This document shows positions 931 to 48,002 of a DNA stretch of 64,000 nt, piece by piece (within the stretch, counting starts at the first letter, position 1; each line of letters starts with the position of its first letter). This DNA comes from Ctenosaura bakeri. Lineage: Eukaryota > Chordata > Lepidosauria > Squamata > Iguanidae. The notes beneath the pieces were generated by a model. The model saw nothing but the letters and a program-made list of their open reading frames with translations, was not told where the DNA came from and did not search any database. The DNA lies in NCBI GenBank assembly GCA_948474755.1, contig CAOLHI010002522.1:62001-126000 (forward strand). Direction: 5' to 3'. A program made the position numbers and the translations under genes.

Positions 931-3900
931 ACTCTACCACTACAGAGCCAGCTAAGTAATCCTGCTAGCACTACTAGTAACCATAGCCACAGATTATTGC
1001 ATTGTTGGATTTCTTCTTGCTCAAAAAGTCCATAAATGGTTTCCAATTTGGAAAAAAAAAATTCAATTGGCTTGTCCTTTAAGACCTATGTTAGTTTGGC
1101 AGTTTGCGCTAGAAAGCTTTAAATCTTTTCTGAATCTGAAATTGAAGGGTTGGTTGTTTGAAACTTTCATCCCACAGAAAATTAATGGTGAAAGATAAAA
1201 GCTTTCCAATTTTTTCCAAACATATAATTACTTTTCAAGACATTTTTTTTCTCAAAGATTTTTCCCAGCCCTCTTTTCTAGATAGATATTTGATTATCAC
1301 CAGTAATTTGTTCTGGGAAAAGCAATTCATATACACTTATCTTTTAAATCCTGAGGTCAGTAAGATGGGACAGTGGGCATTAAGAAGTATTTAAAGCCAG
1401 CAACTCCAGTGCGTATAATCTTAAATCCTGATAATTTTGACAACTTTTTGCCTATTTCTTTTCTCTTAAAAAAATCCTTATATCTGTAAAGTTGTGGTCT
1501 CATAGCAACTGGTCAGACTTGCAAATCCTGCTGACACATCTGTTTGCATGGTTTGGGAAGTGGTTTCGTTTTTAGCTCTGCTTACCAGACAGTATGTACT
1601 GAACAGTCTTGTTGTGAACAGGGGATCAGTTTTAGAAGAGGGTGTGGAATGCTTATTCTGAGGTCTTTTTTGCAATAAACTAGTTAACATGAATAACGGA
1701 AGATTATTCATACTGAATCAGACAGTTGGTCCATATGGGATGATAGTGTCTGCACTAAGGGTGGGAAATTCAAGACCTGAGATCCGTATATGTGCCTCCA
1801 CCTCTTTGGAACAGAATTTGGAGGTTACTTTTTAAAAGTAATTCATAATTAGTTTCCCTTCTAAGTGCCTTTGATTGCTTTTGTAGTTGCACTTTTTAAA
1901 ACTAAGTGTTTGCTTTCATGTTATTCAGAAGTAATTAAAATTGATATCATTTTAGTACTGCATTTGTACTTTAAAATGGTACCATTAGTATTAAAAAAAA
2001 AAAACAACCGTCAGAATTCTGCTAGCCACTCGCCTCTGTTACAAAATACATACTTCTACCATCCATCCAGTTATTGCTTCAACATCTACAATAGAGCACA
2101 AGGTAAAATGAAAGCTAATGCTGGAACTATGTGAAATTCCTCTTCCACCATTTACTTTAGCACATCCCCCAACTATAAAAGCAACTAAAAAGATACAGTT
2201 AAATCACAAATGGAATTGCATTATCCCTTCTTGTGTTTCAGTAGCAATATTACTTAATTATGACTCTCTGTTACAGGCTTCCTCCACTTACCTAACATGT
2301 TAGGGACTGGGGCACTGTCAGAAAATGGAATTGGTTGAAAAGTACAACCCACATATGGTACTGTAGGGATCATGAAGGACTTGTTAAGGCTCAGTTGGGA
2401 CCAACTGCATGCACACTGCTTGTAAAGTCTCCTAGCCAGCTTAGCTACTGGTATTTTTTCTTCCTCTCACCTCACTTTGCAAGCAGTGTGTGTGTGAGAG
2501 AGAGAGGGGGGTTTCAAGCAGACCTCTATAGGCAAGAAGAACTGATGAAAAAATGGAAGCCCTGTCAAAATAATGGAACTCATCCTTAATTTGGAAGTGC
2601 CAAAAGAGCAAATCATCAGATAATGGAGCATCAAAAGGTGGGTGGTTTCTGTTAGGTGAGTTGTAGTAAGTTATTTCCAAGCTCTGCTTTGTATGCAAGA
2701 ATGCAGACCCATTCTTGCTCTCCAGAATTCTCCTGTGACAATTGTTTCCAGTATGTCTGTATGTGTACTCATGTAAGAAAGAGAAAGACAGAGGGAGAGG
2801 GAGGCAGAAACAAGTGAAGGAGCTATTCAGTGTTGTAAATCTGGCCCTCTTGCTTCATTTTTCATTGGCTGAGACCTCTGATTGGGTTTTCTCAAGTATC
2901 AACTACACTTAAGAAACAGGTTGCATGTTCCTGAATGCCACTGATCTTCAGCTGGTGAGTCAAAGCCCACTACTGGGTTGCAACGGCATTAATACAAGCT
3001 TACCAATACTGTGTGCATGTGTATAAATATAGGTGAAAATATCTGTCTGAAAAATGAAATATTACTGGTCTGTACTGACTGGTAGTAGTTTTCTGGGGTT
3101 CCAGACAGGAATCTTTCACAGCTTTACCTGGGAAGGAATAGGAGCAGAGAAGGAAAGAAAGACTGTTGAGCCCCAAGACTTGTGTATGTAATGCTGAATC
3201 ATATCAGAGCCCAGAAATAAACCTGGACAACAAGTACCAGAATTCCCCAAAGCCAGTCCGAATGCAGGATGGGGAAATCTAGAGGCCATAGTTAGAACAA
3301 TAACTTCTCCAAACCGAACTATAGTTTAAGGTTGCATGTAAAATGAATCTTCTTGTCTGCTTCTTGTCATTTTCTAATATACGCAGTTCCCACTTCCCAC
3401 CTCAGGTGTCTTCAGGGCCTTATCAGTTCTGCTGTCTTTCAAGAGTTCCATCTCTTTCACTGTTTAAAAACAAATTCTGACAAAGAGAAGGGAGAGCATG
3501 TTAAGGCGAGCAGTCTGACATGACATTGTATTCCACTTTTCTTTGACTCCAATTAAGGACAGTCTGTAAAGCCACTTTAAAGGAGGCACAGTAAGATGTG
3601 CCATTTCCATACACTACTGCTGACCTTTATTTTTAAGACACACACTTAAAGCTCAACTCTAGACATAGGTTGACAGTATGTGCGTCTTAACAAGGTAAGA
3701 GATGGCTCTGATTTCCGCTACAGCTTTTTATTTAAGAAATGTTCCACTACATTTATTTTGCTTGATTCTTTTAAATATTTATACCCTTAAAATAAAGCTT
3801 TCTCTTTTTTTGCTCCAGCTGCATGAAATTCAAAGGCCGCAGGTTTATTTTGAATCCAACCACAATCCTATGAGTTCTCCTCCTGATTTACATAAGAGCC

Positions 3901-4344
3901 TTATGCATCAGCGGCTAATTCTGTGAATGCTGTCTGTCTGAGAGGCTGGTTTTGTTCCCAGAATGAAAAGAAAGAAAATCTCTTCTTCAGTTTCAAGATG
4001 AAAAATGTGGCTGAGGGAATCTTCAAAGTGATTCATTATGAGGAATTAAATTTTATATTATGAGGAGAAAATACACCAAACGTTTCAGTGAGTATTGTAC
4101 CTATTCATTAAAAAGGGAGCAACCATTCTAGTCTATGAGGAAACCACAGTCAAAACTAAAATCCAGAATTAGACAGTAGATTTTATGTTCTCCAGAACTT
4201 TAGTCAAGCTAGGAGGTGTTGAAAATGAGTATAACCACAGCTGCAAGAAGGACCATGGGCTTACAAGTGGTAGAGATAGTAGGATTATCTGGTGTGTTCT
4301 CCTCTTTGACTTTCCCTAATCTGTCTTGTCCTTACCTAGACTGA
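931..4344. other. anonymous DNA, no gene seen
   Basis: About 3.4 kb without a recognisable gene or well-defined repeat. A short GT/GA-rich tract lies near 2487-2512 and a GA-rich tract near 2779-2806. Several frames of 60-90 codons show no conserved motif or splice-flanked exon structure that I can support. Confidence 0.45.
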
Positions 4345-4475
4345 AGTCCCTTCCACATTGTACAATTACAGTGGTATGATTCCACTATAACAGTCATGGC
4401 AAACCCTATGGGATTTGGAGTTTGCTGAAGCACTAGAACTCTCAGACTGAGAATTCTAAATACCCCTCTCCACAG
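4345..4475. mobile_element. degenerate foldback MITE fragment
   Basis: This fragment resembles a half-copy of the foldback group: a 'tacaattacagtggtatgat' start, an 'accctatgggattt' core and a 'ctgagaattctaaatacccc' arm. It is diverged and the ends are approximate. Confidence 0.5.
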
Positions 4476-5979
4476 TATTAAACATATATGTAGCCAGGCT
4501 GCAACCCAGTAGCAGCACAGCCTTCTTGATTGCTACTGCTGCGATCTCCAGCACCGCTTCTTTTTCTCACACTGAGCTCAGGCATTGCTGGGCTATCACA
4601 ACTGAAGCAGGGCAAAGAGAGGAGGAGAAGCAGCAGCGATCAAAGGAGGAAAGGCTCAAAGTGATACGGAGCAGTCAGTGTTGGGTGCAGTGGCAGAGAT
4701 GATCTTTCTGTAATGGAGGAAAAGTTTTTTAAAAAAGGAATGGATCCTACTTGACCCAACCCACGTGGCTTCAGATGCCCACCCTGATGATGTACCTCCT
4801 TCTACCACCTGCTGGAGGACTACCACCTTAACCCAGGCAATGAAATACATGAAGTAAGGGCAAAGAAAAACCCAAACTATTTGAAAAACATCTTGGATTA
4901 AAACTGTCACTTTTCCCCTCAGGTAGTGAAAAGATCTGAGATTGTTCTGTGAGTAAATCTTACATGCCATGTACAGGTTACTGTTTAGGCTAAAGTGCAG
5001 TTGCAGCCCTGTGCAGATTAGACTAAGGATGAGGGAAGGTAACAACTCTGTATACTTAGTCAGCATTGCATGTTTTGAAGTTTGCAAGTACAATGAAACC
5101 AAAATTTGTACTTCAGAGGAAGTTCTGGAGCAGCTTTTTAAGAGTGACTCTATGAAGGAGTCACTGCCCATCTGAGGATGAAGACACTACCTGCTGAAAA
5201 TTGATTAGAATATGAAGACAACTTTCTCTCAGCTCATCAGATGGAAGTAGAATTAAAGAGCAATCTCCAAAATGCCTCTAGGTACACAAGGAAGAGAGAG
5301 GTTTTCTGGCAATATGGACAAAACGGACAAAAGACCTCATGGTGGAATGGCACCAAGCGTTTAGGACTAACTGGAAATACTGATGTCATGAAAGGCAGAG
5401 ATGGAAGGATTTGCTGTTTATATCCACAGGCAGTTTTCACAGTAGAGAAGCCAGAAACATCATTCAAGGAGGCCGAAGATAAAAGAAGGATGCAATTGAA
5501 GAGACCATGCTAGAACACTTTGAGCTACTTCTTAGAGAAAGCATTCTTTACTACAGTGTCCCCTCCCCCATGTTTGTAAAGTGGAACTTGTAGTATTCCT
5601 CATAGTTTGCTCTACTGGGTAGGGTTGAATGCAGCTGAAGTCCAGGGCTGCTTCAATCATATAATCTAAGGCACAGTGTGTATTTAGGGCATGGAGGAAG
5701 AGAAATGCTTCCAAAGTGGGCATCACTGCACTGAAGACATACACTGGACTGCTGCTGCTGGCATAAACATAAAGCCCTGGAGGGATTGTGGTATCTACTG
5801 TCATAGTGCTGCTACTTCAGAATAGCAATGAGCCAGGAGAGATTTTGTGAACTCTGAGGGCACTTGAGGTTTGACAATGAGGAAACAAATACAGAGTCAC
5901 TGATTTTTCTGCCTCAGTGGCAAAATAACTTGATGTACCTTGGGTACACCAAGGAGCCTAAGGTGTTCTTTGATTACTC

Positions 5980-31999: not shown

Positions 32000-33467
32000 A
32001 TGGCATCCCATGGGAGAAAAACCCACACACCTGCAAAACTAGCAGGCAGTGGTAGTCCAAGCTTCCCTGCTGCCACTGCCCAATGCCTAGTTTTACACTG
32101 AGCCAGTGGGACCAATATGCTTAGCTTTAAAAAGTCCTTCCTCGGAGTCAGATGTTGTTGACTGGGTGATCTGGGAGATTGTCTGAGATCTGGGAGATTA
32201 CCTCTCTTAGGACACCTCATTCACAATACTTTGTTCTGAGGATGCCTCAGACCAAGGCATTTGGGGCCTGCCTAGTTGTCTCTAGAGCAGCAGGTATTCT
32301 GGTGGGGAGGAAGGGAAATTCAGTGCCCCTTGTGCTCCACTGTGTGAGAAAACCACCTTACCTTGCTTAATGGAAGTAGTGTCCGGGCTATTGTGTTAGG
32401 GATAAAACATACTGGTGTGTTAATTTTTTTATACACACCAAGGAGTGGGGAGGGAGAAGCATTTGCCACCCTAGCTTCCATTTGTGTGAACCAGATTAGA
32501 CTCAGACTTAGATTTTTACAGGCAAATACAGTGGCTTACTGTGACTGTGACACTCCTTTCCAATAGAGATGAAATTCTTAAAGCAAACAGCATTTACAGG
32601 TGAGCACAGTAAAGGCCTGAGGATGGGCGGCTCCACCTTGTGTGTTGTACTTGACTTTACTGTTTCTTGTGTGAGCCACCCTGAGGGTCAAAAGTCAACC
32701 CAGTACCTGACAATTCTACCCATAGTTTATAAAAGCAACACGAGTACTGTCAACCTATACAAGACAGCGCACAGTATAGCCCCTTTCATCAGCTGTCAAT
32801 TATTTAGCATTTCAGTAACATGCTGGTTCACTGGCTTGATCTGCTGCGATAATCCTGAGGCTGATTGTGTTCTTGTGCTGAACAGTATAACTCAGAAGTG
32901 CCTTTATTGTACTTAGTGAGGTCATGTGGAATCACACTGGTGCAAAACTAAAATTAACATAGAATAAGAAACAAGCTAATTATGTCTCTTCTATATTTTT
33001 TGATTCCAGCTGGCTATAAAATGTCAGACCAATGGTAGTCTATTAGAAAATAAGCTTCACGCCCTGAAGTGATAACAAACTCATGTTAGTCTAGTTTACT
33101 GCTGTGCTAATATATGCTTTTCCCCCAGTTTCCCAAATTTTCTCCCCTTGTGAACTAAGCTTCTGAGGGTTTTTTTTTCTCTTTCTTTCTTTTTGCTTCA
33201 TTCTCTGGATGCTTTAAACTTTCCGTCAGCATTGCTTTTCAGCTTATCTTATCACTATGAACTGTCCAAAAGTGGTGTTATGTTACACATCTTTTAATTA
33301 CTCTGAAGCTTCCCTAGCTGTCTGCACTTCCTGATTTGACAAACACTGTGGCAGAGGAACAATTTCGTGACAATTTACCCTTCACTTTATTTGAGGCCTG
33401 GGAAACCGGGAAGACTTACTGTACAATGAAAGGCAGGACACTCACACACACTTTGGCCACCTCCTAA
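32000..33467. other. anonymous DNA, no gene seen
   Basis: No named repeat or supported gene. Frames at 32363-32916 lack motifs. Confidence 0.4.
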
Positions 33468-33669
33468 GGCCATTTCCACACTACACTATTATAGTGTTAT
33501 TATTCCACTTCCAACATCCTGTGGAATCCTGGGGTTTGCAGTTTAGGGAGAAGCCTTTAGAATTCTCAGCCAGAGAGCTATTTGGCCTCAGTAAACTACA
33601 AACCCCAGAATTCCCCAGGATGTTGAAAGTAGAATAATAGCACTGTAACAGTGCAGTGCAGAAATGGCC
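33468..33669. mobile_element. foldback MITE with TAA target duplication
   Basis: Begins GGCCATTTCCACACTACACT and ends CAGTGCAGAAATGGCC, with inverted inner arms around 'atcctggggtttgcagttta' and 'aaactacaaaccccagaatt'. TAA at 33465-33467 and 33670-33672 flanks it exactly. It is the best-bounded long member of the GGCC-ended family. Confidence 0.88.
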
Positions 33670-33883: not shown

Positions 33884-33985
33884 TGAGGAGGAATAGGGAA
33901 AAAGAAACAAAGTAGAGTAGAAGTTCTACTTGCAACATTAAAGAATGCACGGCCACAGAATGGTCTATTGTATTATGTAGAGTAA

Positions 33986-34073
33986 CCAATCAGATTTGTA
34001 CAACACATCTGGTGCCTTATGTGAACATGAAGACACTATATTAAAGATAACACTGTGCAAAAATTGTATAAAG
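33986..34073 (+). promoter_or_regulatory. LTR U3 promoter: CCAAT and TATA boxes
   Basis: 'aaccaatcag' and, about 80 bp further, 'ttgtataaagc' form a conventional RNA polymerase II promoter. Transcription would start about 25-30 bp after the TATA box, near 34100. Both motifs are intact in the 3' LTR as well. Confidence 0.7.
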
Positions 34074-34140
34074 CGTTGTGAATTGATGAAGGGGGGGTGC
34101 TCGGTCTTTGGAAGCGATTCCACCGAGGCCCAGCCGGCTG

Positions 34141-34146
34141 AATAAA
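34141..34146 (+). terminator. LTR polyadenylation signal AATAAA
   Basis: AATAAA lies about 75 bp after the TATA box. R would therefore be short and would end shortly after this hexamer. It is intact in the 3' LTR too, where it would terminate the transcript. Confidence 0.75.
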
Positions 34147-34198
34147 CTTTGAATTTCCACTCCATGGGTCTCGATCTCTATTTTTCTGCAACATTTTC

Positions 34199-34219
34199 TG
34201 GGGGCTCGTTATCTGGGAT
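34199..34219 (+). other. primer binding site, tRNA-Pro type, imperfect
   Basis: TGGGGGCTCGT starts 5 nt after the LTR and corresponds to the 3' end of tRNA-Pro, the usual gammaretroviral primer. The next bases, TATCTGGGAT, depart from the expected continuation by a small insertion or substitutions before TGGGAT resumes. The 5-nt gap from the LTR is slightly longer than usual. Confidence 0.75.
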
Positions 34220-34733
34220 CTGAGGGGCCTTTTGCCCACTTAAGCACCCGCCTCCCCAGTATCCGTGCCCCATCGACAGGGAACTTGGGTGCCCCCGATG
34301 CTTAGTCGGACGGTCCTCCTCGTGAGGGCACTGGACCAAGGGATCGGTTTGCCACCTTGGGAACCCAGGATGGTTTGGAAATTCAACATAGACACGGCCT
34401 TAGGTAAGTGCCTCCCTGCAAAGTGTGTGAAAAGGGGAGAAGAGGGGCTTGATCACCCCCTTAGGACCTGCCCTAGTAGAGTGGCCCCAGAGGGGGACTA
34501 CTGAAACCACAGGATTCCTTAGAAGAATGGGAAAAGGAGGGTGGCCATGTTGTTTGGGTGAAAGAACGTGTGACTGGCATCGCAGTTCCTAATGCATACT
34601 GTCGAGAGTCCAGGTGCCTAGGTTGGTGTGTGTATGTGACTGTCTAAACGCTGTTGTGTCGGACTGTTGGGACCCCTTAACCACAGTCCAACCTCCTCCA
34701 ACCCACTTTGTGTTTTTACCAACGGGGAGGAAA
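34220..34733 (+). other. proviral leader with splice-donor consensus
   Basis: About 0.5 kb between primer binding site and gag start, a normal gammaretroviral leader length. 'taggtaagtg' at 34401-34410 is a near-consensus 5' splice site and probably served spliced env RNA. The packaging signal should be here, but I cannot identify its stems by eye. Confidence 0.6.
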
Positions 34734-34811
34734 ATGGGTGGGGGCGGTAGTCAACAAACACCACTCCAATGTATGTTGAAAAACTTCAAGAAAGGGTTTA
34801 GATTGGAGAGT
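34734..34811 (+). pseudogene. gag: gag matrix N-terminus (partial)
   Basis: The ATG at 34734 follows 'ggggaggaaa' and opens 26 codons starting Met-Gly. It has a serine and TPL soon after, then a basic 'NFKKGF' stretch. The glycine at position 2 is the expected myristoylation site that anchors gammaretroviral Gag to the plasma membrane. The frame meets TAA at 34812. Matrix similarity resumes only at about 35600, so the domain is interrupted by foreign sequence. An in-frame ATG further upstream (34614) is less likely to be the Gag start. Confidence 0.75.
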
Positions 34812-35599
34812 TAAGGGTTAAATTTCAGAAAGCAGGCTTCTTGGTTCTCACTCTCTCTGTCTCTTTGTGTCCTGCAAGGAATCAAGCAAGGAGGAGGGAG
34901 GAGTGGGCGAAGTGGCATTGTTTGTCTAAACCGGCTTTCGATTTTTTCCCCTTTCTTTTCCTCCTTGTAGCAGGGAGGTGGTAGAGAGGGGGGGATTTTT
35001 GGTAGCAGAGGATGGCTGCCTTGGTCATACAAAGCCACTCTTTAGGAATGAGTGATTTCTGGATTTTCCTTTTCCCGTTTTTACAGGGGAGATGGATTTT
35101 TAAAGCTGCAAAACTCTGGCATTGCGCTTCTGAGTAAGGACTTGGCATTCCCCCCCGCCTTACTTTCTACAGTCAGTGCTGAGCAGCCAGAGCTGGCTGG
35201 AATTTGCTCTAAGTACTTACTGATGAAGTGAATGTTGCAGACTGGCACCCCGTTGAGTCTCACTGAGGCAAGAGCGGGGGAGAGAAGGGCTCTTCTTCTC
35301 TTTGGGTATCTAGTAATAGGTACTCTTTGGAGCAGCCTGCGACTGGCACAGATTTTATCTCCAGGAGGTTTTTGTTGTTGTTGTTTCTCTCCCACATGGC
35401 CTCTCAAGGATTTTTATAACTTCTCCATCGAAGCATCTCAAAGCATCTTGAAGATGCTCACTTCTTTCCCCTTAATTGGGCAATTCTCTCCCCATGACCT
35501 GTGAGGCTAGCCCACAATAAAAAGTGTAACCTAACCCCAACACCTCATTAACCCCTGGCTTACCTGAAGAGGGAAGTATCCCCCTTCAGCCAAAGTCTA
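34812..35599. other. foreign sequence interrupting gag matrix
   Basis: Matrix similarity stops at about 34811 and resumes at about 35600. The roughly 0.8 kb between them has no gag likeness. It contains pyrimidine-rich tracts followed by AG ('ctcctttcttttcctcc'-like near 34950-34970, 'cttttcccgtttttacag' at 35069-35086, 'tatcccccttcag' near 35580). It also has a GTTGTTGTTGTT run and AATAAA at about 35515. It could be an insertion, a second captured host piece with intronic features, or an element I do not recognise. Ends are approximate. Confidence 0.5.
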
Positions 35600-36818
35600 G
35601 ATAATGGGAAGCCCCATTATCACAGGTTGCGAAGCTTGTGTGAGGTAGAATGGCCGTCATTCAAGGTGGGGCTGTGTATGCAGTGGTGGTAGGGAACCCT
35701 GGACACCCAGACCAGTACCCCTATATAGATGCATGGGACACAGTAGTAACCGAATCCCCCCTCCCCCGGCTTGCAAAATGTAAGGAACAATGCAGTAAAG
35801 TTATGGTGCTGATGAAGGAAAAAACTCGGAAAAAGTACCATTGCCACCATCATCCCCTGCTCTATATCCAGACTTGTCAGACCTGAAAGGGGGATTCACC
35901 CCCACTTAGTCCATCTGATGCCTATGATCTCAGAATTGGGCCAAAGATAAAGGCCAAGGAGATTAAAAGAATACAAGAGAAGCCCCTTTGTGAGGCCCAA
36001 GAAGGGGATAAAGAGGAGGTAGTGACTCCACTTAGACAGGATAGCCAGCTGGTCTCTGATGACTGTGCAAGAAGGAGGCTACAGGCGAGTGCAAGGTTAT
36101 CAATATACTCCCTTCACTACATCAGACCTCCTTAATTGGAAGACACACTATGCTACTCATATCGATAAGCCTCAGGAAATAATTGAACCTTGCTCCAGTA
36201 TCATGGCCTCCCACATTCCAAATTGGCAAGGTTGCCAACAATTGTTAATGACCTTGTTCACTACTGAAGAGCGGAGAAGGATAATTCAACATGCCAAACG
36301 GATAGCCCAGAACAGGGCACTCCCCCCTTTGGAGAGGCAAACCCCGAGCAATGGATGAGGAGGAGAGTTCCCTTAGCCAATCCAGGTTGGGATCCAAATA
36401 AACCAGACCAAATGGCTATGCTCCATGAGGGAAGGAATGAAGAAACCTGTTAACATGTCCAAGGTTTTGGAGGCTCTTCAGGGACCCACCGAACCTCCGG
36501 GGACATAATTGGAAAAGCCGCTTAATGCCTACAGGCAGTTTACCCATGTGAATCCTGATGATCGGGTAACCAGCAAACTGTGAGCTTGGCTTTTGTGACC
36601 CAAAGTTATCCTGATATTAGGAAGAAACTTCAGAAGTAGGAAGGATTTGCAGGTATGAATTTGAGTCAACTGTTGGAGATTGCCCAGAAGGTGTACATGA
36701 ATAGAGATCAAGAAGAGAAACAAGAGAAGGATAGGTGAATGCATGAGAAGGTGGAGTTGCTGGCAGCCGCATTGAGCACTGAGAAGGGTGATTCTAAGCG
36801 GGGAAGAGGAAGGGGCAG
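35600..36818 (+). pseudogene. gag: gag: matrix C-terminal part, capsid and pre-nucleocapsid (broken)
   Basis: Matrix resumes with 'LCEVEWPSFKVG' (35636 on) and, after a frameshift near 35690, 'GHPDQYPYIDAW', a typical gammaretroviral matrix motif. Capsid similarity (Gag p30 family) is clear in the open frame 36059-36358, with 'PFTTSDLLNWKTHY' and 'WQGCQQLLMTLFTTEERRR'. It continues in broken form through 'SYPDIRKKLQK' (36600-36640) and a charged 'KVYMNRDQEEKQEKDR' segment. The last gag-like part (36739-36818) ends in a basic 'KRGRGRGRR' stretch. The zinc knuckle that should follow is missing, because NuMA-like sequence starts there in a different frame. Multiple stops and frameshifts make it non-functional. 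Confidence 0.85.
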
Positions 36819-38466
36819 AAGATGGATGAGGAGAAGGCCAAGAGACTGGCACTGGAAGGTCAGGTGCAACAGCTGGGGGAAGAATCCAGGACCAAAGTCC
36901 AGGAGCTTCAGCAGCAGCTGGCAGAATTGTCCTCTGCTGCCAGAGGGGAGACAGGCAAGTGCGAGAGGCTGGAAGAGAAAGTCCAAGCCCTAAGCAGGGA
37001 TTGACAGCAGCTCCTGCAGAAATTGCAGGTTGAGCAAGCGAAGGTGGCAGAAGTGGAAACACAGATGAGGCACCTGAGCACCAAACACCAAGAAGCTCTG
37101 GCTGAGCTTCAAGCCAGTTTGTCTCTTGCACATTCCCAGGCCAAGGTGGCAGAGGGTGCCAAGGAGAAGCTCAGAGCTGAGATTGCCTCTTTGCAGGAGG
37201 AGATGGCGGCTGTTCACCAAGAAGCAGCCCAGAATGCAGCAAAAGCGAAAAAGCGTGGGCGTGAAGCAGCGCAGGCCCTCGAAGCTGCCACCAGAGACCT
37301 GGCTGAGGAGAAACTCAAGAGAGCAGAGCTGAAGGCCAGAGTGAAGCAACTGGGTGAGCATAGCCATAAAGACCAGTCAAGCCTCTCCAGTATCAGGTCT
37401 TCCCTGAAGGAGAAGGAGCACGAGGTGAAGCAGCTCTCTACCCAGGTGAAGTTGCTGGAGAGCAAGTTAGAGGAGGCCATGCAGCAGCAGAAATGGGAGC
37501 TAGCTCTGCACGACGAGGAAGCGAAGTGGCTGGCAGGAGAGGAGGAGCGAGCCAGGGCAGAGCTAGCCACAGAAAAGGCTGGCTAGGCAACGCTGGAGGT
37601 CCAGCTGCAGAACTTCACTAATGAGCACCGCATGAGGTCTCTGGCCTCCAGAAAGAGGTGGCCAGAGCCCAGGAGCTGGTTGGGGAGAAAAGAGGGAGCT
37701 GGAGAAACTGTGCCTGAAGAACGTCTCTCGCAGCGAGGAGCTGACGGACCTGCAGAAGACCGTCAGCAAGCTGAAAGGGGAGCTGGCTTCCATGGAGGCA
37801 CTGAAGGAGAGGGAAGCCAAAATGCAGAACTAGCTGCAGGGCTTCCTGGAGGTGGCCAGGACCCTGGAAGCAGAGCTGAAGAGTATCAAGTCCCTGGTAC
37901 ACTCCAAGGACCTCTCTCTGAAAAAACCTGGAGGAGGAGAAGCGCCTTTGGGAATGGGAGTGTGCTTCAAGCTGGGAGCTCTATGAGAAACAGCTGAAGG
38001 AGTGTGAGGCACTGCGCGGCCAGATGGGGAAGCTGGAGCGGCAGTGCAAGGAGCACCAGAGCACCCTTGCCAAACTGGAGAAGGCCGTGGCAGCCTTGGG
38101 GCAAGAGCGGCAAATGGAGATGGAAGCTGTAAAGCAGGAGGTGGTGCAGCACAAGCAGCGAGCCTCTGAGCTGGAGAAGCTGCTGGAGGCTTCTAGGTCC
38201 ACGCAGGAGGCTGCTGTAGAGAAGCTGAAGAGGGACCTTCTTGAGAAGGGAGAGCAACTGACCCAAAGCAGAGAGGCTGTGTCAAGAGCCGAGAAGGAGC
38301 TGGCTTCTCTGTGCGCCTCAGCCCAGGAGAAGGGCAAGCCCGAGGAGAGCTGGAAGGAGCAAATGTCACGGTGCCTCCAGGAATCTGAGAGGAAGGTCAG
38401 CCTGGTCAACAGCCTGGAGAAGGAGATGTCCATCATGCACAGGCAGCTGCTGGAAAAGGAAAGTCT
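36819..38466 (+). pseudogene. NUMA1-like: captured NuMA (NUMA1) central coiled-coil segment
   Basis: About 548 codons of Glu/Lys/Leu/Gln-rich heptad sequence with no viral character. I recognise it as the rod of NuMA, which tethers spindle microtubules at the poles. The best segment, 38399-38458, reads SLVNSLEKEMSIMHRQLLEK. Human NuMA, from memory, has SLISSLEEEVSILNRQVLEK. Preceding parts ('QLQNFTNEHR', 'ELTDLQKTVSKLKGEL', 'LGQERQ..', 'ELASLCASAQEK') follow in the same order as NuMA. The globular N-terminus and the C-terminal tail (tubulin, LGN and nuclear import sites) are absent. Lesions: TGA 37002, TAG 37584, TAG 37831, frameshifts near 37632, 37690 and 37923. It is visibly GC-richer than its surroundings. 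NUMA1 is known to have a very long exon for the rod, so lack of introns does not prove a cDNA origin. Other coiled-coil proteins are less likely given the ordered match. Confidence 0.85.
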
Positions 38467-39140
38467 ATCTTAATGGGATACATGGATTTGCTGCCCTGGC
38501 CTCCTCAAGGTGTCAGCCGTGCGCCAAAATTAATCCCCGACAGGGACCTAAGATGGCAGAAGGAAAACAGTATCAAGGAAGCAGCCCCTTCGAGTCACTG
38601 GTAGTAGATTTCACTGAATTGCCCTGAGCCGGAGCCTATCACTACCTCCTAGTCTTTGTTTGTACTTACACTGGATGGGTGGAAGCTTAGCCCACCCACA
38701 CCGAGAAAACGCGGGAGGTCATACGAGCCCTGCTCCAAGATTTCATTCCCCGACACAGATTACCACATCATATAGGCTCAGATAATGGACCCGTGTTCGT
38801 CCACAAGATCATCCAACCACCACTCTGGGAATCACCTGGAAGCTACACTGCACTTACCGACCCAGAGTTCAGGGAAGGTGGAAAGGATGAATCGAAACCT
38901 AAAGACACAGTTTTCCAAATTGTGCCAAGAAACGAGGTTGTAGTGGCCAGATGCTCTACCCATAGCCTATTTCAGGATAAGGTGCACGCCACATTAAACC
39001 ACAGGGCTTGGGACTAGGCCCTACTGCAGTTGCTACCAGGGATGCACTGCTCTACGTATGGCCAGATCCTGAATGTGGGAAACAATATTGTGGGTTGGAG
39101 GAGGTATAGGGGCAGCGGCAGGCCTTGGTTATATATTGTA
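38467..39140 (+). pseudogene. pol: pol remnant: integrase (broken)
   Basis: The frame that resumes right after the NuMA-like part contains 'CQPCAKINP', the CxxC half of the integrase zinc-binding domain. 'VVDFTELP' follows with the first catalytic aspartate, then 'YLLVFVCTYTGWVEA' and 'HIGSDNGPVF' with the second aspartate. The region of the catalytic glutamate is shifted to another frame near 38815 and further broken. In-frame stops are TGA 38625 and TAG 38688. Nothing of protease, reverse transcriptase or RNase H is seen upstream, so the host insert joins capsid to the start of integrase. Integrase inserts viral DNA into the host genome. This one is inactive. Confidence 0.88.
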
Positions 39141-39175
39141 TCACTTCAGACAGTGGTATTGCGGATCTTGACAAT

Positions 39176-39356
39176 ATGTGGATATGGGGATTGTTGCTTG
39201 TGATGGGAGTGATGCTGAGCCAGGGAGGCTGGGAAGTGAATTGGTTTCACCAGTTAGTCAATCAGATCTTAGCACCCTGAATGTCAGTGATTGCTGGGTA
39301 TGTTCTCATGGGCCAAGCTCACACATGCAAAGCTCAATGACCCAAACCAAGTAATT
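39176..39356 (+). pseudogene. env: env 5' remnant (signal peptide and surface-unit start)
   Basis: The ATG at 39176 opens 34 codons with a hydrophobic signal-like run (Trp-Ile-Trp-Gly then Leu/Val/Met) ending at TGA 39278. In another frame the next residues read 'NVSDCWVC', a glycosylation site and CxxC-like pair as found near the start of gammaretroviral surface subunits. The rest of env is missing: the 3' LTR begins about 45 bp after the last recognisable codon. It cannot make an envelope protein. Confidence 0.6.
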
Positions 39357-39386
39357 ATGCTTAAATTGCTGTGTAGAATTTAGCAT

Positions 39387-39399
39387 AAAAGTGGGGAAA
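39387..39399 (+). other. polypurine tract
   Basis: 'aaaagtggggaaa' directly precedes the TG of the 3' LTR. It is the plus-strand primer site for reverse transcription, with one T interrupting the purine run. Confidence 0.75.
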
Positions 39400-39709
39400 T
39401 GAGGAGGAATAGGGAAAAAGAAACAAAGTAGGGTAGAAGTTCTACTTGCAACATTAAAGAATGCACAGCCACAGAATGGTCTATCGTATTATGTAGAGTA
39501 ACCAATCAGATTTGTACAACACATCTGGTGCCTTATGTGAACATGATGACACTATATTAAAGATAACACTGTGCAAAAATTGTATAAAGCGTTGTGAATT
39601 GATGAAGGGGGGATGCTGGTTCTTTGGAAACGATTCCACCGAGGCCCAGCTGGCTGAATAAACTTTGAATTTCCACTCTGTGGGTCTCGATCTTTATTTT
39701 TCTGCAACA
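39400..39709 (+). repeat. 3' LTR of the provirus
   Basis: 310 bp from TGAGGAGG to TGCAACA, gap-free against the 5' LTR. The differences counted by eye are about 12, mostly transitions, near 3.9 percent. CCAAT, TATA-like and AATAAA signals are all preserved. Confidence 0.95.
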
Positions 39710-47123: not shown

Positions 47124-47302
47124 GGCCATTTCCGCACTAGCCTGTTATAGCGCGATGATTCCACTTTCAGCATCCCTGGAATCCTGGGGTTTGCAGTTTC
47201 GGGAGGGGCCAATTGGCCCCTCCCGAAACTGCAAACCCCAGGATTCCAGGGGATGTTGAAAGTGGAATCATCGCACTATAACAGGCTAGTGCGGAAATAA
47301 CC
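47124..47302. mobile_element. near-perfect palindromic MITE with TTA duplication
   Basis: Arms of about 88 bp are reverse complements with roughly four substitutions and one gap, meeting at 'ggggccaattggcccc'. TTA at 47121-47123 and 47303-47305 flanks it. It is the GC-richest member of the GGCC-ended family and could extrude a long hairpin. Confidence 0.88.
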
Positions 47303-48002
47303 TTAGTGCAGCACCGAAACTTATCATCAGGCCCTTCACAGCATAGGACCATGCTATCTGAGATATGTTCTGTGCAAAATGAGATCTGAGAATGTTCTGT
47401 GCAAAATGAAGTAAAGCCATGTAATACGAAGACAAAGTTTACCAATAAGCCGTGAAAGTGTACAAAAAAGTTTATGATGTCAAACTATGCCTAAATATCA
47501 CCTTTTTTTTTTTAGTCAAGATCAATTCATAAAAAGTCACCCACTGAACCCAAAACTCCAAAATGTTTGCTAGGAAATCATATGAAATAGTTGATTAATC
47601 TGGTCCAAAATCTTACTGCAGTTTTCTTTGTAGTCCAATCAGATAACATACCAAGTTGTGTGATTTTGTTAATTAAATTGTATAGGTTTGTATAACAAAG
47701 AAACAGACAGACAGATGAATGTTATAAATTATTGTGTAGATGCAGGATGAGGCCAGGTTTCACACACCAAATATCACTGGTGATTCTGCCAATGGCTTAA
47801 GAAGTCACAAGAATGTCTCTATAGAACAACTGTGATGGATTCTATTACATTCTGCAAAAGCTTCCTATACACCAAGTATAGGTAAGGTGGCCATTTATAT
47901 ATCATCCGAAAAGTGGACAAGACATAAGTTTGTCTTGTGTTAATCTATATACATAGGTATAAATACAGATATAATAACCATAGCTGAAAGAAAAATGCAA
48001 TA
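47303..48002. other. anonymous DNA, no gene seen
   Basis: No gene or named repeat. TA at 48001-48002 is the left duplication of the next element. Confidence 0.4.

Follow-up and report, generated by a model that had tools for sequence, protein, structure and literature searches.

A multi-copy endogenous retrovirus family of Ctenosaura bakeri carrying an internal piece of the host NUMA1 gene

The stretch of DNA analysed here (the window) comprises 64,000 nucleotides of the iguanid lizard Ctenosaura bakeri (assembly GCA_948474755.1, contig CAOLHI010002522.1, positions 62,001 to 126,000) and holds a provirus in which a piece of the host gene NUMA1, encoding part of the coiled-coil rod of the mitotic protein NuMA, lies between the remnants of the gag capsid and the integrase (Table 1). 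The two long terminal repeats (LTRs), each of 310 bp, starting with TG and ending with CA, differ by 12 mismatches (3.9%; Kimura two-parameter distance, K2P, 0.040) and a 4-bp target duplication, GAAT, stands on either side of the provirus; the initial annotation, which had placed an insert of about 1.65 kb inside a provirus with matching LTRs, was correct in this respect. Upstream of the insert, a p30 capsid piece of 110 aa matched Pfam PF02093 (E 5.7e-13) and PDB capsid P30 chains (from E 9e-15). Target duplications of 4 bp are a gammaretrovirus trait and, as judged from these and the capsid family, the provirus is a gammaretrovirus-like (class I) endogenous retrovirus (ERV). Downstream of the insert the integrase match was weak (Pfam rve, E 0.026, under cut-off) and the same block recurs across the provirus family, while about 500 bp near 39008, present in most other copies, are absent from the window copy. 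No reverse transcriptase was found between gag and integrase in the NuMA-bearing copies, and an Rfam search gave no match. The leader begins with a stretch that resembles a primer-binding site, possibly that of a proline tRNA.

Human NUMA1 aligned to the insert in two ordered, collinear blocks, with residues 751-1043 matching 36804-37634 (E 6e-12) and residues 1123-1246 matching 38006-38464 (E 2e-17), as had been proposed from the letters of the window; a reversed NuMA control query had no match in the window at E<=1. Over residues 740-1260 the human query is 100% identical to the Homo sapiens nuclear mitotic apparatus protein 1 entry. The host gene was located on contig C2434 (fetched as stretch L031), where a single exon with an open frame of 1246 aa corresponds to human NuMA residues 414-1518 (E 1.6e-150), and the middle of this exon matches the insert at 92.8% DNA identity over 1.65 kb. 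The nearest named relatives of the exon are all NUMA1 (Sceloporus undulatus, 85%; Anolis carolinensis, 82%; Pogona vitticeps, 79%), and Phrynosoma platyrhinos NUMA1 matches at 86% identity over 58%. Pfam matches of the insert to myosin-tail and golgin families were weak (22 bits, below cut-off) and are mere coiled-coil likeness; because the host NUMA1 exon matches so closely, other coiled-coil proteins are out of play, and the check suggested at the outset, whether NUMA1 would rank above myosin and golgin, was decided for NUMA1. PDB searches with two NuMA pieces returned weak matches only, and a protein search with a 183-aa NuMA piece, under a length filter that shuts out full-length NuMA, had no match. 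The homology spans about 36815 to about 38461, with joins good to about 5 bp; the working segment (36805-38466) takes in up to 10 viral bases on the 5' side and 5 on the 3' side. Upstream of the host exon, a 467-aa open frame (L031:1399-2802) looks by eye like a DIRS-type tyrosine recombinase.

Within the genome the insert has at least 70 matches on at least 39 contigs, one of which is that of the host gene (40 of 115 candidates scored). The sample examined consists of 22 proviral loci, namely the window and 21 others (19 of 20 fetched stretches, L031 being the gene, plus L041 and L042), and all 21 of the others have viral parts around the NuMA segment. The 5' breakpoint is identical in 18 of 18 copies aligned (L036, L040, L041 and L042 left out) and the 3' breakpoint in 17 of 17 (L029, L033, L036, L041 and L042 left out, L033 and L036 lacking the NuMA end), so that the search for further copies with the same junctions, also suggested initially, was borne out. 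Parts of the host exon outside the captured segment matched none of the 22 proviral loci, and the 3' part beyond the capture has one match genome-wide, the gene itself. Target duplications of 4 bp were found in four of the five proviruses judged, the window included, and not in L024 (ten proviruses were looked at, and the five judged were those with the start of the 5' LTR placed right). These shared breakpoints and target duplications show that viral and NuMA sequence reached other sites together, as one unit, and it is likely that the NuMA piece was picked up once by the retrovirus and then copied round the genome with it. Identity to the host exon ranges from 89.9 to 93.4% over the 21 rows of the main set (19 loci, one in two halves, plus the window), and the copies are about as far from one another (mean identity 92.7%, 208 pairs) as from the host; compared with the host exon, 18 of the 21 rows share an in-frame deletion of 12 bases. 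A collection of viral contigs, hardly expected to hold vertebrate ERVs, contained no relative when scanned with the p30 piece and the 3' join.

Table 1. Features of the window provirus, and composition of the sampled proviral loci
Feature	Position or loci	Strand	Basis or remark
Whole provirus	33884-39709	+	LTR pair
5' LTR, TG...CA, 310 bp	33884..34193	+	LTR comparison
Leader, with a primer-binding-site-like stretch at its start, a few bases past the LTR	34194..35640	+	
gag matrix remnant	35644..35883	+	weak Gag_MA, E 0.0073, under Pfam cut-off
gag capsid (p30) N-terminal piece	36026..36355	+	Pfam and PDB; remaining capsid in other frames
Nucleocapsid-like stub preceding the 5' join	36739..36814	+	named by eye; frame differs from that of NuMA
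Captured NUMA1 exon piece (human residues ~751-1246)	36815..38461	+	92.8-93.0% identity to host exon
Integrase remnant, stop-broken	38467..39014	+	core weak by Pfam; zinc-finger end by eye
Envelope remnant and purine-rich stretch before the 3' LTR	39015..39399	+	envelope by eye
3' LTR, 310 bp	39400..39709	+	LTR comparison; 96.1% identity with 5' LTR
Group A, with capsid	window, L021, L022, L024, L025, L034, L038		
H1-bearing piece between gag 412 and ~1093	L023, L026, L040		
gag 453 jumps to ~1093	L027-L030, L032, L033, L035-L037, L039		ten loci
H1-bearing regions	L023:4125-4954; L026 ~4144-4920; L040 (reverse complement) ~5110-5803; L042:1470-2385		

In related proviruses linker histone H1, also a captured host gene, takes the position of the missing capsid and adjoins NuMA; both this gene and the multi-copy family go beyond what the initial annotation had expected. 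Human H1.2 matched L023 at 74% over 88 residues (E 9e-34); L026, L040 and L042 were matched as well, and L032 and L041 hold weak remnants; the L042 piece scored above the Pfam linker-histone cut-off (23.7 vs 22.4 bits). When the 830-bp H1-bearing piece of L023 was compared with the genome, at least 54 matches were obtained (40 of 71 candidates scored), among which those on C256, C100, C1513 and C1914 (positions 515-823, 82-86%) resemble host H1 genes and others resemble proviruses, several of these absent from the list of NuMA-bearing loci. When group A was compared with group C, to which L040 was assigned here, mean identities were 0.926 for NuMA, 0.914 for env, 0.895 for the LTR, 0.890 for the stub, 0.889 for integrase, 0.888 for gag and 0.887 for the leader, with almost no fixed differences. 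From these values the NuMA segment could have moved between older backbones by recombination, a reading to which the identities within group A (NuMA 0.937, gag 0.943) add nothing. L041 and L042 represent an older subfamily, in which a stretch of 500-570 bp lies between a shortened NuMA piece and the integrase (L041 reverse complement 3747-4322; L042:3117-3623).

The initial annotation had also envisaged a Gag-NuMA fusion protein, and here the reading frames point the other way. In all 18 copies a stop in the NuMA frame lies just upstream of the NuMA ATG, with 8 codons between (L030 has one extra ATG in this interval), and in 17 of the 18 the nucleocapsid-like gag stub is in a frame other than that of NuMA, the stub of L038 not having been found by motif. 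Three of the seven group A copies (L022, L025 and L034) have one open frame that includes the capsid end and the stub and continues past the join, out of the NuMA frame, and none of the seven has an open frame that reaches the join from the N-terminal piece of p30. Because the NuMA frame is closed upstream and the stub is in another frame, a plain Gag-NuMA fusion protein appears unlikely, and translation of the NuMA fragment from its own ATG is possible. A host segment in frame with gag, by which an acute transforming retrovirus would be recognised, is accordingly not what the joins contain.

Fifteen LTR pairs were tried, and the 13 usable ones (L025 and L027 were left out for misplaced LTR coordinates) gave K2P distances of 0.014-0.087, two of the pairs spanning only 160-182 sites; if a yearly rate of 1e-9 substitutions per site is assumed, this corresponds to ages of about 7-44 million years, and about 20 million years for the window copy. 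The window NuMA copy has 3 in-frame stops and 3 frame-changing indels (an alignment-edge row left out), and none of the stops or frame-changing indels is found in every NuMA copy; an 8-base row at the 3' edge (19 rows) in the indel count is the edge of the alignment and not an event. Differences from the host that at least 80% of the copies share, counting those at the join edges, amount to 24 nonsynonymous changes, 26 synonymous changes and 0 stops, against a random expectation of 35.2, 13.6 and 1.2, and the observed synonymous count was reached in 0 of 2000 simulations; this class mixes in changes on the constrained host branch. Changes in fewer copies (130 nonsynonymous, 67 synonymous, 8 stops) and those in single copies (336, 155 and 25) both fit random placement. 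After polarisation against Sceloporus, Anolis and Pogona, with 4 of 20 residue rows dropped because they lie at the join edges, the 16 residue differences inside NuMA found in at least 80% of copies comprise 4 that look virus-derived and 4 perhaps so, 3 host-derived and 3 perhaps so, and 2 unclear.

These patterns bear on whether the NuMA fragment was a working viral gene, as Gag-NuMA or as a free rod protein, under selection during replication. The excess of synonymous changes in the widely shared class, the absence of a frame-changing indel common to all copies and the higher identity of NuMA than of stub and integrase between groups A and C would all suit such a gene. However, the widely shared class contains the constrained host-branch changes, the less-shared and single-copy changes behave as if placed at random, NuMA is no more alike within group A than gag is, and the NuMA frame is closed just upstream of the ATG in all 18 copies checked, so that we regard a selected viral gene as rather unlikely. 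Changes in the segment after the copies diverged look neutral and passenger-like, and the captured frame was likely open at first and decayed neutrally later. Since the NuMA frame is open in what the copies have in common, a rod fragment could once have been made, and our guess is that this would have been most simply from its own first ATG and not as a Gag fusion.

Loci absent from the NuMA list suggest what the segment replaced. Several loci outside the NuMA list have a gag match that reaches the end of the query just before the position of the join, with the integrase block further on, and the distance between the two is 2681 bp in C375 and 2876 bp in C1095, compared with 1666 bp in the window. 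The two longer distances are presumably the length of pol. The NuMA segment occupies the place of nucleocapsid, protease and reverse transcriptase; the genome bearing it is therefore defective, and is thus likely to have spread with helper proteins. The match to NUMA1, the joins common to the copies, the target duplications beside the LTRs and the range of LTR divergence are observed; beyond these, we consider it highly probable that a piece of a host NUMA1 exon was captured once by a gammaretrovirus-like ERV and that the resulting defective genome, mobilised by the proteins of related proviruses, was re-inserted many times. The piece was likely taken up as RNA, through a template switch involving viral RNA and NUMA1 mRNA packaged together, and would have replaced the end of gag and pol; pol-bearing relatives may then have supplied packaging and reverse transcription in trans, and a single capture would have been followed by repeated germ-line re-insertion.

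Several observations weigh against this history of a single capture followed by helper-driven spread. Both breakpoints are inside one NUMA1 exon, where no intron would be expected in any case, so that the lack of introns is no proof of capture from RNA. In a tree of the NuMA sequences the branches radiate as a star, and host and virus are not separated. The sequences read include no pol-bearing parent, and other relatives outside the NuMA list have gag-to-integrase distances too short for a full pol (1846 bp in C3161, 1850 bp in C1686, 1851 bp in C1242 at 185001-186851, 1817 bp in C543 and 1220 bp in C6019). In the older subfamily, L041 and L042 have not kept the 5' join; of 26 diagnostic sites in a rough alignment, 20 show the viral base in these loci, a state that could also be ancestral in the host. 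These two loci hold just parts of the segment, differently arranged, which is what could be expected had the same NUMA1 stretch been captured several times independently. For the main set, however, such a history is refuted by the breakpoints common to all the copies aligned, and the 12-base deletion shared by most rows also argues against it; we consider repeated capture very unlikely overall.

Insertion of a NUMA1 processed pseudogene into one provirus by a long interspersed nuclear element, with multiplication of that provirus afterwards, would account for a segment that is cDNA-like and on the gag strand. The segment is, however, an internal exon piece without the 3' end of the gene and lacks a poly(A) tail where it meets viral sequence on the 3' side, and the spacing in C375 and C1095 indicates that viral sequence was seemingly replaced and not interrupted, which makes this route highly improbable. 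Chance coiled-coil likeness, for which the weak myosin and golgin matches might speak, is refuted by the identity to the host exon over the whole segment, and an assembly artefact, the objection raised in the initial annotation, is excluded because the same joins recur on many other contigs.

Single capture with helper-driven spread has partial parallels among known retroviruses. In acute transforming retroviruses of the gag-delta-pol type a host segment replaces parts of gag and pol, giving a defective, helper-dependent genome between two LTRs. The NuMA family is similar in having the host segment in the gag-pol position of a defective genome between LTRs; it differs in that it carries no known oncogene, has no in-frame Gag fusion at the join, and is multi-copy and old in the germ line. 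Avian retroviruses with two captured host genes exist, and the NuMA family likewise has two unrelated host genes in one provirus, although here these are linker histone H1 and NuMA, and some related loci seem to hold just one. Among the matches listed in searches of the open-licence literature there was no capture of NuMA or H1 by a retrovirus, and a NuMA tryptic peptide did not occur in the literature searched; the available part of PMC13297096 mentions neither NuMA nor histone. The initial annotation had known of no ancient fixed transducing provirus of this kind in a reptile, but crocodilian ERVs with captured host mRNAs precede it, namely KIT-ligand in CrocERV29 and nectin3 in CrocERV31, for both of which purifying selection is reported (PMC4299795). 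As far as the accessible portion of that account extends, these are the closest printed case, sharing with the NuMA family a reptile ERV group, several insertions and host coding sequence within the provirus. There, nectin3 came at the cost of env in CrocERV31, whereas NuMA stands in place of the end of gag and pol; and the crocodilian captures are a signalling ligand and an adhesion molecule, whereas the capture here is an internal fragment of a spindle and nuclear coiled coil, apparently neutral after divergence, with H1 in addition. H1 as a second captured host gene in related proviruses is new here.

Why the virus should have carried a histone and an inner fragment of a spindle protein at all is a question that the family raises. 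It is conceivable, and in our view distinctly unlikely, that this retrovirus lineage gathered host nuclear genes into one defective genome, with pol giving way to the NuMA rod and capsid to H1, and shuffled them between backbones by recombination, gaining a hold on chromosomes through mitosis; if so, chromatin binding by H1 together with the spindle and nuclear NuMA rod would tether the viral complex to mitotic chromosomes, a step that gammaretroviruses need. To our knowledge there are few fixed, multi-copy records of retroviral host-gene capture, and such germ-line captures reveal which genes are taken when tumours are not the filter. The present family offers 22 copies, 13 of them dated, with exact joins, the donor gene in the same genome, relatives outside the NuMA list and a second captured gene, so that the sequence of capture, recombination and selection acting on the captured genes can be tested directly. 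Outside the provirus, the window also contains an inverted pair of 92 nt, 84% complementary (33464-33555 and 47215-47306), which may be a short mobile element present twice.
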